Source: an uncultured Lachnospiraceae bacterium
GTDB lineage: Bacteria > Bacillota > Clostridia > Lachnospirales > Lachnospiraceae
Length of the DNA: 55,223 nucleotides
Reading direction: 5' to 3'
Assembly (NCBI GenBank): GCA_902760755.1
Contig: CACWHK010000012.1
Span: 1-55,223 of the forward strand
Below are positions 21,415-55,223 of the stretch, one piece after another (the stretch's first letter is position 1; every line of letters begins with the position of its first letter). The notes under the pieces were generated by a model. The model was given only the letters and a program-made list of their open reading frames with translations, had not been told where the DNA came from and made no database searches. The translations under genes and the position numbers were made by a program.

Positions 21415-21442
21415 TGTCATTCTGAACGCAGCGAAGAATCTG
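21415..21442 (+). repeat. Dispersed palindromic repeat (family 1)
   Basis: TGTCATTCTGAACG / CAGCGAAGAATCTG, imperfectly palindromic (ATTCT / AGAAT arms), in the gap between the LtaS-like and purO genes. Confidence 0.75.
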
Positions 21443-25919: not shown

Positions 25920-25979
25920 AGATTCTTCGCTTCGCTCAGAATGACATTTCACTGGCATTCGGAGCGAAGCGTAGAATCT
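25920..25979. repeat. Head-to-head pair of family 1 repeats
   Basis: AGATTCTTCGCTTCGCTCAG (25920-25939) and, after a short centre, GGAGCGAAGCGTAGAATCT (25961-25979) form a long imperfect inverted repeat between the rubredoxin gene and proC; its end is 20 bp from the proC start. Confidence 0.75.
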
Positions 25980-42464: not shown

Positions 42465-42469
42465 TGCTT

Positions 42470-42553
42470 GTCATCCGGAGCAAAGCGGATGTCATCCGGA
42501 GCAAAGCGGATGTCATCCCGAGCAAAGCGGATGTCATCCTGAGCAAAGCGAAG
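42470..42553 (+). repeat. Four tandem 21-bp family 1 units
   Basis: Units at 42470, 42491, 42512 and 42533 (GTCATCCGGAGCAAAGCGGA and variants). The last unit has CTGAGC and GCGAAG, like the dispersed family. No unique spacers, so not CRISPR. Confidence 0.9.
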
Positions 42554-44144: not shown

Positions 44145-44170
44145 TGTCATCCTGAGCAAAGCGAAGGATC
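44145..44170 (+). repeat. Family 1 repeat
   Basis: TGTCATCCTGAGCAAAG / CGAAGGATC; single copy downstream of the SPFH terminator. Confidence 0.8.
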
Positions 44171-46992: not shown

Positions 46993-47268
46993 ATGCAGAT
47001 TACGGATGTAAGAGTGAGAAAGGTAGCAAAAGAGGGGAAGATGCGCGCGGTTGTTTCGATCACCATCGACAACGAGTTCGTGATCCATGACATCAAGGTG
47101 ATCGAGGGCGAGAAGGGCCTCTTCATCGCGATGCCCAGTCGGAAGTCCTCCGACGGAGAGTATCGGGATATCGCACATCCGATCAATTCCGGAACCAGAG
47201 AGATGATCCAGTCTCTGATCCTCGAGAAATACGAGCAGACATCCTTTGAGGAGCCGGATGAGGTATAA
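46993..47268 (+). CDS. spoVG: SpoVG, site-specific RNA/DNA-binding regulator
   Basis: A 91-residue protein. [31 protein letters not shown] and [24 protein letters not shown] are near the family consensus. SpoVG binds nucleic acids and affects septation, virulence or metabolism in many Firmicutes, including non-sporulators. AGGGAGG lies before the ATG. In clostridia it usually lies next to glmU; here a lipoprotein gene intervenes. Confidence 0.96.
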
Positions 47269-47345: not shown

Positions 47346-48680
47346 ATGAAGAATCGAGCAAGAAGAATACTGCTGTCAGGCGTGGTGTTCGCCCTGGTTA
47401 TCTCGCTAACCGGGTGTGAACATGAATCGGATATACAGGTTGAGTATTCCGTAAAAGAGAATTCACCGACGGAGGATGGGACTCTGCCGGCGGGAGATAT
47501 AACGAATTATCCGGCGGTTCAGTACGATGGTGAAACATTTCTGGAAGAATCTTTCTCTATAGATCAAACCCTGGTCAGTCTAAAGCTTAATTCGATTGTA
47601 TATGACGACGATCATATGAGTCTTATCTATGCAAATGAGATAGATGAAAATAGAATCCATGAGGAAGAAGTGCTCAGGAATACATTCGGTACTACAGGAA
47701 AAGAAGTGAAGCATCTTCCAAAATTGAACGGGGAAAGACTATACGGGGAAGGTCTCTCTGAAGAGGTGATTGTGTATTGTGATTCCTGGATGAGGCAATA
47801 CACAAATGAGGCAGTTGATCGGGATGTGTGCTGCACATGGTTCGATGAGGCGTCCGGTTATCTGCATACATATGAAGGGACATATCAGGGGATTGACTAT
47901 TATCTTACCATCAGTTATTCAAAGGACGAGAACAATAAGCAGATCCTTCTTTATCCGAAGAATATCACTGATCTGACGGGGGAGACAGGCTATAATGCAT
48001 GGTTCCCATTTCACTCGGACACGGAGATAATGAACGAACTTACAATCCATGAAGTGGCAGGCGATACCTCGAAGAACCAAACGGTTACAAATGAAAACGA
48101 TTTGGTCAGTAAGGTGTCTTATTTCTGTGAGAATACGCTCTGTGTGTCGGTGCCATATGGTGCTTATAAAAGAGATAATGCATTTTCCGGGTATGATAAA
48201 AGCCAGATTCTATACTATCTTTGTGATATGGATGGAACTGCCGAGCAGGGAGAGGGCCTGATCGACGGATACGGATTTGAAATGTGCTGGACGCATGACT
48301 GGATATCTTCGTGGGGAGAAAAACCGGATAATCGTGGGGTTGTATACGTGAATGACAAGGGAATCGTAGCGGCAAGGTTATCGCTTTGTTATGAATTGGT
48401 TGAAGAAAAGGAAACAACCGTTCCTGCATTTGAACAATTGATGAAAGCATTTGAAAAACATTTTCAGAACGAATTTGATACTTCGCGTGTGAATGGGAAT
48501 AAGGTTTCTATAACATCAATGAGGTTGCTGTATATGCCCATTAAGTCCGAAGAAGGGGAAGCGGGTACGGTATTTGCTCCGGTTTGGGAGATGCCCGTGT
48601 GGTATGAAAAAGGCGGCGTAGCAGTTGTATATATAAATGCAGTGAATGGAGAAATAGAACGGATCGAGTATGGGAATTGA
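47346..48680 (+). CDS. Lipoprotein of unknown function
   Basis: A 444-residue protein with a signal peptide (RRILLSGVVFALVISL) and lipobox LTGC, so it is a lipid-anchored extracytoplasmic protein. The mature part has no recognised domain; notable are many acidic residues, several cysteines and a C-terminal segment (APVWEMPVWYEKGGVAVVYINAVNGEIERIEYG) resembling repeats of secreted Firmicute proteins with a PepSY-like end. Its DNA is more AT-rich, with different codon choice from its neighbours, and it interrupts the usual spoVG-glmU order; recent gain is likely. Ribosome site AAGGTG is partly in the spoVG terminator. Confidence 0.72.
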   Translation: MKNRARRILLSGVVFALVISLTGCEHESDIQVEYSVKENSPTEDGTLPAGDITNYPAVQYDGETFLEESFSIDQTLVSLKLNSIVYDDDHMSLIYANEIDENRIHEEEVLRNTFGTTGKEVKHLPKLNGERLYGEGLSEEVIVYCDSWMRQYTNEAVDRDVCCTWFDEASGYLHTYEGTYQGIDYYLTISYSKDENNKQILLYPKNITDLTGETGYNAWFPFHSDTEIMNELTIHEVAGDTSKNQTVTNENDLVSKVSYFCENTLCVSVPYGAYKRDNAFSGYDKSQILYYLCDMDGTAEQGEGLIDGYGFEMCWTHDWISSWGEKPDNRGVVYVNDKGIVAARLSLCYELVEEKETTVPAFEQLMKAFEKHFQNEFDTSRVNGNKVSITSMRLLYMPIKSEEGEAGTVFAPVWEMPVWYEKGGVAVVYINAVNGEIERIEYGN

Positions 48681-48690
48681 TGGGTCAGCC

Positions 48691-48718
48691 TTGACTTTCC
48701 TTTGGAAACGTGTAAACT
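48691..48718 (+). promoter_or_regulatory. Candidate promoter before the glmU-pth fusion
   Basis: -35 TTGACT (48691-48696), 16 bp, -10 TAAACT (48713-48718), 59 bp before the start. Confidence 0.45.
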
Positions 48719-48776
48719 ACATGAGTGATAATTCGTTCGTGGAACAATCGAGGAAAATAGAAAAGGAGACAGATAA

Positions 48777-49886
48777 ATGAGTCAGTTGACCGCACTGATC
48801 CTTGCTGCGGGCAAGGGAACAAGAATGGAGTCAGAGCTGCCGAAGGTGCTGCACACCTGCTGCGGAAAGCCTATGGTGAGCCATGTGATCGAAGCGGCCC
48901 GCGGGGCCGGAGCTGATCGGGTGGTGGTGATCGCCGGATATAAGAGTGAGATGGTCCATGCAGAGCTGCAGGATACCGTGCTTTATGCAGAGCAGACCGA
49001 GCAGCTGGGAACCGGACATGCCGTGATGTGTGCAGCGGATCAGCTGGGGAACGAGGGCGAGACCCTGATCCTCTGCGGAGATACGCCGCTGGTAACCGCT
49101 GATACCCTGAAGACACTTTGCGAGATGCACCGTAACGCGGGCAACGGCGTAACCGTGCTTTCCGCAATCCTGGAGGATCCGACAGGCTACGGCAGGATCA
49201 TCCGTGACGCAGACGGAGCCTTTGTGAAGATCACGGAGCATAAGGACTGCACCGAAGAGGAGCGTGCCACGAAGGAGATCAACGCGGGCATGTATATCTT
49301 CGATACTGCCATGCTGCAGGAGAGCCTCGGAAAGCTGACAAATGACAACGCACAGGGCGAGTATTACCTGACGGATACCATCGAGCTGATCAAGGCCGCC
49401 GCGTTGACGCAGCTGGCGGACCGCTACAACATAGCACTGAACAAGAAGGAAGCGAAGAGCATCACCGGTCACGGCGTGATCGAGGGAGAGAAGGTGGTCC
49501 TGGCCATGCCACAGACCTACATGAACCTCTCGGGCGAGGCGGTGCAGCCATTGCTTGCCTTCTATAAGTGTACCCCGGAGGATCTCATCGTCCTCTATGA
49601 CGACGTGGATCTGGACGTGGGACGACTCCGTATCCGGGGGCAGGGAAGTGCCGGCGGACATAACGGAATGAAGAGCATCATCGAGCATATCGGAACGGAG
49701 GAGTTCGCCCGCGTGCGCGTGGGCGTCGGAAAGAAGCCCGAGGGCTGGGACCTGGCGGATCACGTCCTCTCCCGCATCCCGAAGGAGGAATTCCCCGTCT
49801 TCCGCGAAGCCTGCGAGAACGCAGCCGACGCCGTACGCATCATAATAACCAGTGGCGTTCAAGCAGCTCAGAATCAATATAACTAG
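48777..49886 (+). CDS. GlmU uridylyltransferase domain fused to truncated Pth
   Basis: A 369-residue frame made of two unrelated genes. Residues 1 to about 205 are the GlmU uridylyltransferase: LILAAGKGTRMESELPKVLH, EQLGTGHAV, LILCGDTPLV, NAQGEYYLTDTIEL. From about 213 it is peptidyl-tRNA hydrolase: LADRYNI, MPQTYMNLSGEAV, LYDDVDLDVG, GSAGGHNGMKSI. Missing are the GlmU acetyltransferase beta-helix and the Pth N-terminus with its conserved Asn and catalytic His (N10/H20 in E. coli), so the Pth half should be inactive. The usual glmU-prs-pth-mfd order implies a deletion that removed prs. AAAGGAG precedes the ATG. A real fusion or an assembly chimera are both possible. Confidence 0.85.
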   Translation: MSQLTALILAAGKGTRMESELPKVLHTCCGKPMVSHVIEAARGAGADRVVVIAGYKSEMVHAELQDTVLYAEQTEQLGTGHAVMCAADQLGNEGETLILCGDTPLVTADTLKTLCEMHRNAGNGVTVLSAILEDPTGYGRIIRDADGAFVKITEHKDCTEEERATKEINAGMYIFDTAMLQESLGKLTNDNAQGEYYLTDTIELIKAAALTQLADRYNIALNKKEAKSITGHGVIEGEKVVLAMPQTYMNLSGEAVQPLLAFYKCTPEDLIVLYDDVDLDVGRLRIRGQGSAGGHNGMKSIIEHIGTEEFARVRVGVGKKPEGWDLADHVLSRIPKEEFPVFREACENAADAVRIIITSGVQAAQNQYN

Positions 49887-49898
49887 AAAGGAAACCTG

Positions 49899-52800
49899 AT
49901 GGACGCGATTCGTGTGCCGGTTTCCAATACAACATGCATAGAGAAGGCAACCCGCCTCCTGACGAAGGCCCAAACCCCCTTCACGATCTGGGGCGCCTCG
50001 CGGAACGTCCGCCCTCTGGTGATGGAAGCCCTCCGCGGCGACGCGGAGCAGGTGCTCCTGGTCACCTACGACGAAGCCCGGGCGGATCAGCTGTATCAGG
50101 ACTACCGCTTCTACGACCGGAACGTCTACATTTACCCGGCCAAGGACGTCCTCTTCTACTATGCAGACGTACACGGAAACCTGGCAGCCAGGAAAAGACT
50201 GGAGATCATCAAACGCATACAGGACAAGGAACGATCCGTGATCATCCTGACCGTCGAAGGTCTGATGGACCGGATCCCCGCGCCGGAAGCCGTGCGAAAC
50301 AGCTCCCTCACCCTGAAGAAGGGCGAAGAGATACAGCTTGGCGCCATGCAGCGCCTCCTCACGGAAATGGGCTACGAGTCGGTACCCCTTGTCGAGATCG
50401 CAGGGCAGTTTTCTGTTCGGGGCGGGATTCTTGATATCTTCCCCCTCACAGAAGAGTGCCCCGTCCGTGTTGAGCTCTGGGGGGATGAGATCGAGTCCAT
50501 CCGCGCCTTTGACGCCTCCACCCAGCGCTCCATAGAGGAGCTTCCGGAGGTGGAGATCCTCCCCGCTACCGAATTCGTTCTCGAGCCCGAGCGCATGGCC
50601 CGGGGCATGAAGAAGATCGAAGAGGAGCATGAGAAAGCAGCAAAGGCCTTCAAGGAAAGCTTCCACACGGAGCAGTACGCCCGCCTGAACAAGGCGGTGC
50701 GCGACCTGAAGGAAGGCATTCAGAACTTCGCCGGAGCCTCCAAGATCGACACCCTGGTATCCTACTTCTTCCCGGATTCCGTCTCCTTCCTGGACTATCT
50801 TCCGAAATCCACCCGGATCTTCGTGGACGACCCCATGCGGGTATCCGAACAGGCCCGCGTCTACTTCGAAGAGTTCCGCATGGCCATGGAATCCCGGCTT
50901 GCAGGAGGGTATATCCTCCCCGGACAGGCAGACGTCCTCTTCAGCGACGCGGAGATCGTAAACCGCCTGGCGGACACGGCTACGGTGCTCTTCACGGACT
51001 TTCAGGAGCAGCAACGGGTGATGCCTCCGAAGGACCAGCTGGAATTTACGGCAAAACGCATGACACCCTACGGCGGACGTCTCGACGAGATGGCCGCAGA
51101 GCTTATAAAATACAGGGAGGACGGCTACAGCATCCTCCTCATCTCCATGTCCAAAACCAGGGCCGGACGCTTCGCGGATGCCCTGCAGGAACGGGAGATC
51201 CCTGCATTTTTCTCAACAAGTAAGACCAGAGTCCTGCAGCCGCGGGAAGTCATGGTCACCACAGGCTCCCTGGAAAGCGGCTTCCTCCTTCCGGAGGCGA
51301 AGCTTGTTGTCCTCACGGAGTCGGAAATGCTCCGCAAGGATAAGGAGAAGACCCGCCGGCAGCGGTCCCGCTACTCCGGCGAGCAGATCTCGGACCTTCG
51401 GGACCTGCACGTGGGAGACTACGTGGTGCATGAACGCCACGGCATCGGCATCTACCGGGGTATCGAGCAGGTGGAGACCGACGGGCGCATGCGGGACTAT
51501 ATCAATATCGACTACGCAGACGGCGGGAAGCTCTTTATCCCCGTGGACCGTCTGTCCGTCATCGGAAAATACGCGGACCAGAACGCGGCCAAGCCGAAGC
51601 TGAACAAGCTTGGAGGCGCGGAGTGGGAGAAGACCCGCAGGCGCGTTCGCACCCACGTGGACCACATGGCGGAGGAGCTGATCAGCCTCTACGCGGACCG
51701 GCAGACCAAGCAGGGCCATGTGTACCCGCCGGATACGGTGTGGCAGAAGGAGTTTGAGGAGACATTTCCCTACGAGGAAACCGAGGATCAGCTGCAGGCC
51801 ATCGCGGATACCAAGCGGGACATGGAGTCCGGCAAGATCATGGACCGGCTCATTTGCGGCGACGTGGGTTTTGGCAAAACGGAGGTGGCCATCCGTGCTG
51901 CCTTCAAATGTGTGCAGGACAACCGTCAGGTGGCGTACCTCGTGCCCACCACGATCCTGGCGCAGCAGCATTTTGATACCTTCATCAAACGACTGGCAGC
52001 CTACCCGGTGAATATCCGCATGCTGTCCCGGTTCTGCACCCCGAAGGAGACCAGGGAAACCCTGGAGGGCCTGAAGAACGGCACCGTGGATATCGTGATC
52101 GGTACCCACCGCCTGCTGTCCCAGGACGTGGGCTTTGCGAAGCTGGGGCTTCTGGTGATCGACGAGGAGCAGCGCTTCGGCGTGCGTCATAAGGAGAAGA
52201 TCAAGCAGCTCCGGAAGACCGTGGACGTGCTGACGCTTACCGCAACGCCTATCCCCCGGACCCTGCATATGAGCATGGTGGGCATCCGGGACATGAGCCT
52301 GCTGCAGGAACCGCCGGTGGACCGCCGGCCCATCCAGACCTACGTCATGGAGTACGACCGGGAGCTGGTGAAGGAAGCCTGCAGGCGGGAGCTGGCCCGG
52401 AAGGGGCAGGTCTACTACGTCTACAACCGGGTGGATGATATCGCCCGGGTGGCCTCGGAGCTTATGGAAATGCTCCCCTCCGCGGAGATCGCCTTCGCCC
52501 ACGGGAAGATGACCTCCCGGGAGCTGGAGAGTCTCATGCGGGATTTCGTGGAGCAAAAGATCGACATTTTAGTCACCACCACCATCATCGAGACGGGGCT
52601 GGACATCCCCAACGTGAACACCATCATCATCCACAACGCGGACCGCTTCGGTCTCGCCCAGCTCTATCAGCTGCGGGGGCGCGTGGGACGGTCGGGCCGC
52701 AATGCATTTGCGTTCCTCATGTATCAGCAGAACAAGCTGATCAAGGAGGAGGCGGAGAAGCGACTTTCTGCAATTCGGGAGTTTACAGAACTGGGTTCCG

Positions 52801-53432
52801 GATATAAAATATCTCTGAAGGACCTGGAGATTCGCGGTGCCGGAAATGTACTTGGCAGCGATCAGTCGGGCCACATGGAGGAGGTCGGGTACGACCTCTA
52901 CGTGAAGATGCTTTCCTCAGCCATCCGCAGGAAGCGGGGGGAGGAGGAAGAGGAGGATTTCGATACGGTGATCGAGCTTCCGATCGACGCGTACATTCCG
53001 GATGCGTATGTCCGGAGCGAGTATCTGAAGCTGGATATGTATAAGAGGATCTATCGGATCCGGAACTCCGAGGACGCGGATGCGATCCGGATGGAGATGA
53101 CGGACCGGTTCGGAGAGCTGCCGAAGCAGGTGGAACGGCTTCTCAGGGTAGCTGAGATGAAGAATCTGGCCCATGCCTGCAGCATGACCGAGGTGAAGTA
53201 TCAGGATGGGGAGGTGTTCTACCTCATCAAGAACGGGACCAGAGTGGAAGCGGAGCAGATCCCGGCCTTCCTGAAGAAGCGGAAGGGTATGCGGCTGGTA
53301 GTCGCAAAGAAATCCGGCTTCGCCATCCGACGCTCCAAGCTGATCCAGGAGGAGCTCTTAGACGCCGTCACCGAGGATATCCGAACGATCCATGAGATGC
53401 TGATCCCCAAGAAAGAAACGATGTCATCCTGA
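49899..53432 (+). CDS. mfd: Transcription-repair coupling factor
   Basis: A 1177-residue DNA translocase that removes stalled RNA polymerase and recruits UvrA. Order: UvrB-like N-terminal modules ([13 protein letters not shown]), RNA polymerase-interacting CarD-like domain ([18 protein letters not shown], about 510), superfamily 2 helicase motor with Walker [16 protein letters not shown] box in [31 protein letters not shown] and QLRGRVGRS, then the TRCF C-terminal domain. The length is normal. The start is 12 bp after the fusion gene, with AAAGG before it. The last codons Met-Ser-Ser-stop are part of a dispersed repeat that begins at 53422. Confidence 0.96.
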
Positions 53433-54732: not shown

Positions 54733-54755
54733 TCCTGACGCAACCGAAATAACAT

Positions 54756-55223
54756 ATTAGCCAATCCTGTCTGACTTGGGGATGAGAAGGGCATCAGCGG
54801 CTAATAGTTTGGAGATTTTCATGATATTATTAGTCAATTGCGCCCGAATAGGCGATGACAAGAGCAAGCGCAGCTAATGAATCAAAGATTGCCAATGAAT
54901 TATTAGCCAATCCTGTCTGACTTGGGGATGAGAAGGGTGTCAGCGAGAATATCAAGATATTATTAGTCAATTGTGCCTGAATAGGCGATGACAAGAGCAA
55001 GCGCAGCTAATGAATCAAAGATTGCCAATGAATTATTAGCCAATCCTGCCTGATCAGGGGATGAGAAGGGTGTCAGTGGCTAATAGATTGGAGGTTTTCA
55101 AGATAGTATTAGTCAATTGTGCCTGAATAGGCGATGACAAGAGCAAGCGCAGCTAATGAATCAAAGATTGCCAATGAATTATTAGCCAATCCTGTCTGAC
55201 TTGGGGATGAGAAGGGTGTCAGC
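54756..55223. repeat. Tandem array of 73-bp monomers, two alternating types
   Basis: ATTAG monomer starts: A 54756, B 54829, A 54902, B 54962, A 55035, B 55108, A 55181 (cut by the window end). Spacing is 73 bp every time except the second A (60 bp, 13 bp deleted). Type A: ATTAGCC...CTGAC...GTCAGCGGCTAAT; type B: ATTAGTC...GCCTGAATAGGC...AGCTAAT. Both carry GGNGATGANAAGRG in the centre. The B linker (GAATCAAAGATTGCC...) is invariant; the A linker varies. No long frame crosses it (73 is not a multiple of 3). Not CRISPR, tRNA or any class I know. Confidence 0.9.

Follow-up and report, generated by a model that had tools for sequence, protein, structure and literature searches.

An in-frame glmU-pth join in a Lachnospiraceae draft genome, probably an assembly error or a non-viable deletion in a lineage-typical gene pair

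Introduction

Bifunctional GlmU (TIGR01173, PRK14354) combines a uridylyltransferase domain with a C-terminal left-handed-helix acetyltransferase domain; an archaeal-type GlmU (TIGR03992; PDB 2ggo and 5z09) is also described, as is Pth (PF01195, TIGR00447). According to PMC7725333, bacteria without GlmU exist, and one Chlorobaculum GlmU has no acetyltransferase domain. Among the papers listed in literature searches, judged by the starts of their abstracts, none dealt with a Lachnospiraceae GlmU that is split or with a GlmU-Pth fusion.

The window analyzed here, a 55,223-nucleotide stretch from an uncultured Lachnospiraceae bacterium, is contig C12 of a draft genome of 2,582,608 bases in 78 contigs that is 87.96% complete. 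It contains a frame that resembles the uridylyltransferase domain of GlmU over its first 206 residues and, in the remainder, retains positions 22 to 183 of the Pth profile. Unlike bifunctional GlmU, this frame has no acetyltransferase domain, as is the case in all 19 loci that we read from its genus; it differs further from GlmU in that the uridylyltransferase domain also lacks its end, and from Pth in that it lacks the N-terminal segment that holds the RHN motif in relatives.

Results

The frame runs from ATG to stop at positions 48777 to 49886 on the plus strand, encodes 369 aa, and is present as sequence. GlmU residues 1 to approximately 208 are joined in frame to Pth from approximately residue 24, and Pfam placed NTP_transferase at residues 6 to 206 and Pept_tRNA_hydro at residues 208 to 369. 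The pth remnant scored 150.3 bits with TIGR00447, against a cut-off of 100. Relatives align as far as approximately 49395 to 49401 on the glmU side and from approximately 49397 on the pth side, and the short overlap of the two sides at the junction (Table 1) is deduced from the codons of these relatives. The in-frame join reported by the first-pass annotation was found; the earlier estimate of approximately GlmU residue 205 and Pth residue 30, at 49389 to 49415, becomes approximately residues 208 and 24, at approximately 49391 to 49399.

Table 1. Positions of the features discussed, in the window unless another contig is named
Feature	Position	Strand	Match or basis
spoVG, upstream neighbor	46993..47268	+	NCBIfam PRK13259, 148.6 bits (cut-off 108)
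Remaining part of glmU (uridylyltransferase domain up to ~residue 208; C-terminal end missing)	48777..49399	+	TIGR01173 positions 2-206
Junction, inferred 4- to 5-bp overlap of glmU and pth sides	49391..49399	+	Alignment with eight relatives; split of matches
pth remnant from ~residue 24, N-terminal segment missing	49397..49886	+	PF01195 positions 22-183 of 183; TIGR00447
mfd, downstream neighbor, full length against the relatives compared	49899..53432	+	TIGR00580, 1129.6 bits
L064, 231-aa left-handed-helix protein behind a topoisomerase-like frame	G000, contig C30: 10239-10931	-	TIGR03992, C-terminal half, 139 bits (cut-off 292.1)

The extent of the loss was taken from a 481-base query from relative G017 that reaches from the last part of glmU across the spacer into the first part of pth. 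The window matches this query at bases 1 to 39 and 426 to 481, and the 386 bp between them (bases 40 to 425) are missing; they hold approximately 34 GlmU codons, the stop codon, the spacer, and approximately 23 Pth codons, a coding loss of about 175 bases plus the spacer. The GlmU segment with EILGVN, which we take to include the metal-binding Asn, and the Pth N-terminal segment with GLGNPG...RHN, which presumably includes the catalytic His, are present in relatives and gone from the window. The uridylyltransferase domain is thus incomplete, its match ending at model position 206, and the Pth profile match begins only at position 22 of 183, so that the earlier statement that the N-terminal segment of Pth is lost holds. 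With both of these parts missing, the hybrid product should carry out neither reaction, and both activities are predicted to be lost.

In the genus, all 19 loci read (L003 to L021) have a short glmU of 237 to 248 aa that encodes the uridylyltransferase domain only, and pth follows it with no prs between them. A separate pth open reading frame was read in 15 of the 19 loci and also in L007 and L017; in L018 and L020, pth is known from the Pth match alone. The glmU-pth spacer, measured in 15 loci, is 0 to 376 bp, which is too short for prs. Single frames of 430 to 556 aa had hinted at widespread glmU-pth fusions among the genus relatives, but when the open reading frames were read, the two genes proved to be separate in the loci covered. 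Among the matches listed for the 52 other genus genomes that matched a 501-base junction query (60 tried, with the best 10 candidates or fewer for each), none crosses the join, so no relative in that set shows the join that a fixed natural gene fusion would leave.

Outside the genus, nine of ten stretches were read: six have a long glmU frame of 455 to 488 aa (L053, L054, L055, L057, L058, and L062), two have a short one (L060 and L061; 250 and 255 aa), and no glmU frame was listed for L059. The GlmU cut-off was exceeded in 125 of the 196 genomes of the order sample. Among the rows listed for family f1, three genomes (G000, the source genome, with G088 and G100) have a GlmU match below the cut-off, and 20 are without a match at an E value of ≤1e-30; beyond the rows listed, 19 more are without a match. 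Nine titled records (L073 to L081) were examined from at least 80 loci. Five of them (L073 to L077; three titled Lachnospiraceae, one Clostridium, and one Clostridiales) have a short glmU of 241 to 253 aa with a full-length pth match close behind, and the other four (L078 to L081) have a long GlmU of 452 to 457 aa and then a prs match. The records of Lachnospiraceae bacterium NC2004 and C6A11, which are cultured relatives, carry the short glmU.

These layouts bear on the first-pass annotation, which proposed that the join had deleted three essential functions, a proposal that is mostly wrong. Because the genus loci read, like five of the nine titled records, show a short glmU with pth behind it, neither the acetyltransferase domain nor prs was lost through this event; in those genus loci, both are normally absent from this position, and in the source genome, prs lies on contig C4 (399 aa; PRK06827, 582.6 bits; cut-off, 327). 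Additional intact glmU or pth genes, which the first-pass annotation had named as one expectation, did not turn up among the assembled contigs. There is no second Pth in the 88%-complete assembly (one of one candidate scored) and no second strong GlmU uridylyltransferase: of the 12 matches to GlmU models, the next best reached 43.6 bits, whereas this locus scored 260 (all 16 candidates scored), and two weaker N-terminal matches that were read look IspD-like by inspection. No PTH2 was found in the same genome in a search whose control matched in four archaea, and a search of the 88%-complete assembly for UDPGP genes gave no match. The G017 query gave no listed match to the missing coding parts elsewhere in the genome (40 of 76 candidates scored).

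What remains of both genes appears constrained. For comparisons between the window and eight of the 19 relatives, dN/dS was 0.041 to 0.120 for the glmU remnant and 0.035 to 0.115 for the pth remnant, whereas among those eight relatives, it was 0.031 to 0.136 for glmU (28 pairs) and 0.028 to 0.169 for pth (27 of 28 pairs with a value). The test is weak for old divergence because dS exceeded 1 in many pairs (five of the eight window pairs for glmU and all eight for pth). Values inside the range of the relatives give no sign of an old dead allele and are compatible with either a recent loss or no true loss at all.

The spacer that is missing from the window contains a dispersed repeat in the relative. 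The G017 query had 44 matches in the source genome; 41 lie within query bases 170 to 295, in the spacer, which is what identifies the repeat there, two are the locus itself, and the remaining one covers 21 bases (query bases 8 to 28). In the source genome, 29 + 22 copies of the repeat core were counted at ≤1 mismatch, against 1 + 1 for a reversed control, and in the window there were seven at ≤2 mismatches, against 0.02 expected. Within the window, dispersed repeats of the TGTCATCCTGAGC type were observed at 42469-42550, 44145-44161, 21415-21431, and 25930-25946, one site being a 21-bp tandem of 3.9 copies.

In the window, the other conserved frames that were compared look near full length. 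Downstream, with mfd, lies a frame with a weak peptidylprolyl isomerase match (50.9 bits against a cut-off of 303; SurA_N_3). Between spoVG and glmU there is a 444-aa frame (47346-48680) that gave no family match in Pfam or NCBIfam; of the five relatives compared, G019 alone encodes a related frame, at 55% identity.

Discussion

In this study, we have examined a frame that starts as glmU and continues as the later part of pth, and we consider that it is most probably an assembly or consensus error, or else a non-viable deletion allele or molecule that was caught in sequencing, on a glmU-pth pair typical of the lineage. The first-pass annotation had voiced the suspicion of a false join, and we retain it within the most likely reading: working parts of both enzymes are lost, the join is in no matching relative, and much of what was taken for deleted is simply not found here in the normal layout of the group. 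The single Pth and the lack of PTH2 and UDPGP matches in the source genome also count for an error or a dead allele, and the join would then not be the state of living cells. It can be envisioned that the starting locus was a short glmU, encoding the uridylyltransferase only, and pth, followed by mfd; that the error, or the non-viable deletion, arose where relatives carry the dispersed repeat in the spacer; and that, with approximately 175 coding bases and the spacer missing from the draft, what is left of the two genes would be read as one frame. Several observations count against an error: both break points lie inside genes and not in the spacer, repeats of the same kind were assembled elsewhere in the genome, the reading frame is kept at the join (a one-in-three chance), and the apparently near-full-length state of the other frames indicates that the contig is not generally poor. 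If the join is false, it carries a warning, since a spurious junction that keeps the frame can go unnoticed by a gene caller and can even, as with TIGR00447 here, exceed the cut-off of the Pth model.

The nearest compared relative changes at the junction, from G019 for spoVG and glmU to G017 for pth and mfd, and the window could therefore be a false join of two related genomes, one like G019 that supplied the sequence through glmU and one like G017 that supplied it from pth onward; we regard this as unlikely. Identity to G019 is 96% for spoVG and 89% for glmU and then 75% for pth and 65 to 74% for mfd, positions 48261 to 49401 match G019 at 90.8%, and the 444-aa frame before glmU has its relative in G019 alone among the five compared. 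However, a diverged pth-mfd-prsA block is common to G019 and G036, so that the drop in identity to G019 is expected even without a chimera. Identity to G017 (spoVG, 94%; glmU, 84%; pth, 83%; mfd, 79 to 84%) is 84 to 94% before the junction and 79 to 84% after it, and base composition is similar on either side.

It is quite improbable that the sampled population carries a real deletion and tolerates it through intact glmU and pth genes located in the approximately 12% of the genome that is unassembled. The incompleteness of the genome and its division into 78 contigs leave room for such copies, but the assembled part has neither a second Pth nor a second strong GlmU uridylyltransferase match, and among the matches listed, no congener has a second intact pair. 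That the frame is a real, still working fusion protein is very doubtful: although the reading frame continues through the join and the two remnants look constrained, each enzyme has lost conserved segments, the join is in no matching congener, and the constraint is equally expected under a recent or false loss. Equally hard to credit is a real join fixed in a living lineage, in which the only recognized Pth and UDP-GlcNAc pyrophosphorylase would be broken and both reactions would be covered by unrecognized enzymes.

On the preferred reading, an assembly error or dead allele, the main interest beyond the fusion is that the genus loci that were read have no bifunctional GlmU, in what is apparently a split GlmU pathway. 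The left-handed-helix protein encoded on contig C30 (Table 1) is a candidate glucosamine-1-phosphate acetyltransferase on the basis of its sequence. Its best family match, to archaeal-type GlmU, covers the C-terminal half of that family and, at 139 bits, falls short of the 292.1-bit cut-off; the protein aligns with PDB 2ggo and 5z09 at 3e-22; in contrast to archaeal-type GlmU, it has no nucleotidylyltransferase domain. A protein of this type is encoded in all 37 genus genomes tried (the source genome and 36 others) and, at an E value of ≤1e-15, in four of 24 genomes of other orders (G038, G039, G048, and G049). The pairing of this protein with a short GlmU is not strict, because in G049 it occurs together with a long GlmU. 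Should the C30-type protein catalyze the acetyltransferase step, the UDP-GlcNAc route in this group would be split over two unlinked genes.

Elsewhere in the family, UDPGP was found in nine of 13 genomes of other genera, against none of eight genus genomes, and the matches in the other genera served as the positive control of the search. A GlmU match at an E value of ≤1e-30 is absent from 11 of these 13 f1 genomes, eight of which have UDPGP. G147, G161, and G208 have neither UDPGP nor such a GlmU match, so that the picture for the family is incomplete.

The pth-mfd-prsA block of G019 and G036 (L023 and L032), which is diverged from that of the other relatives compared, starts immediately after glmU, as though recombination had taken place at the spacer. 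At the far end of the window, the contig ends inside a tandem array (54755-55223; rows with periods of 73, 133, and 146), and this array is the probable reason why the assembly stopped there.
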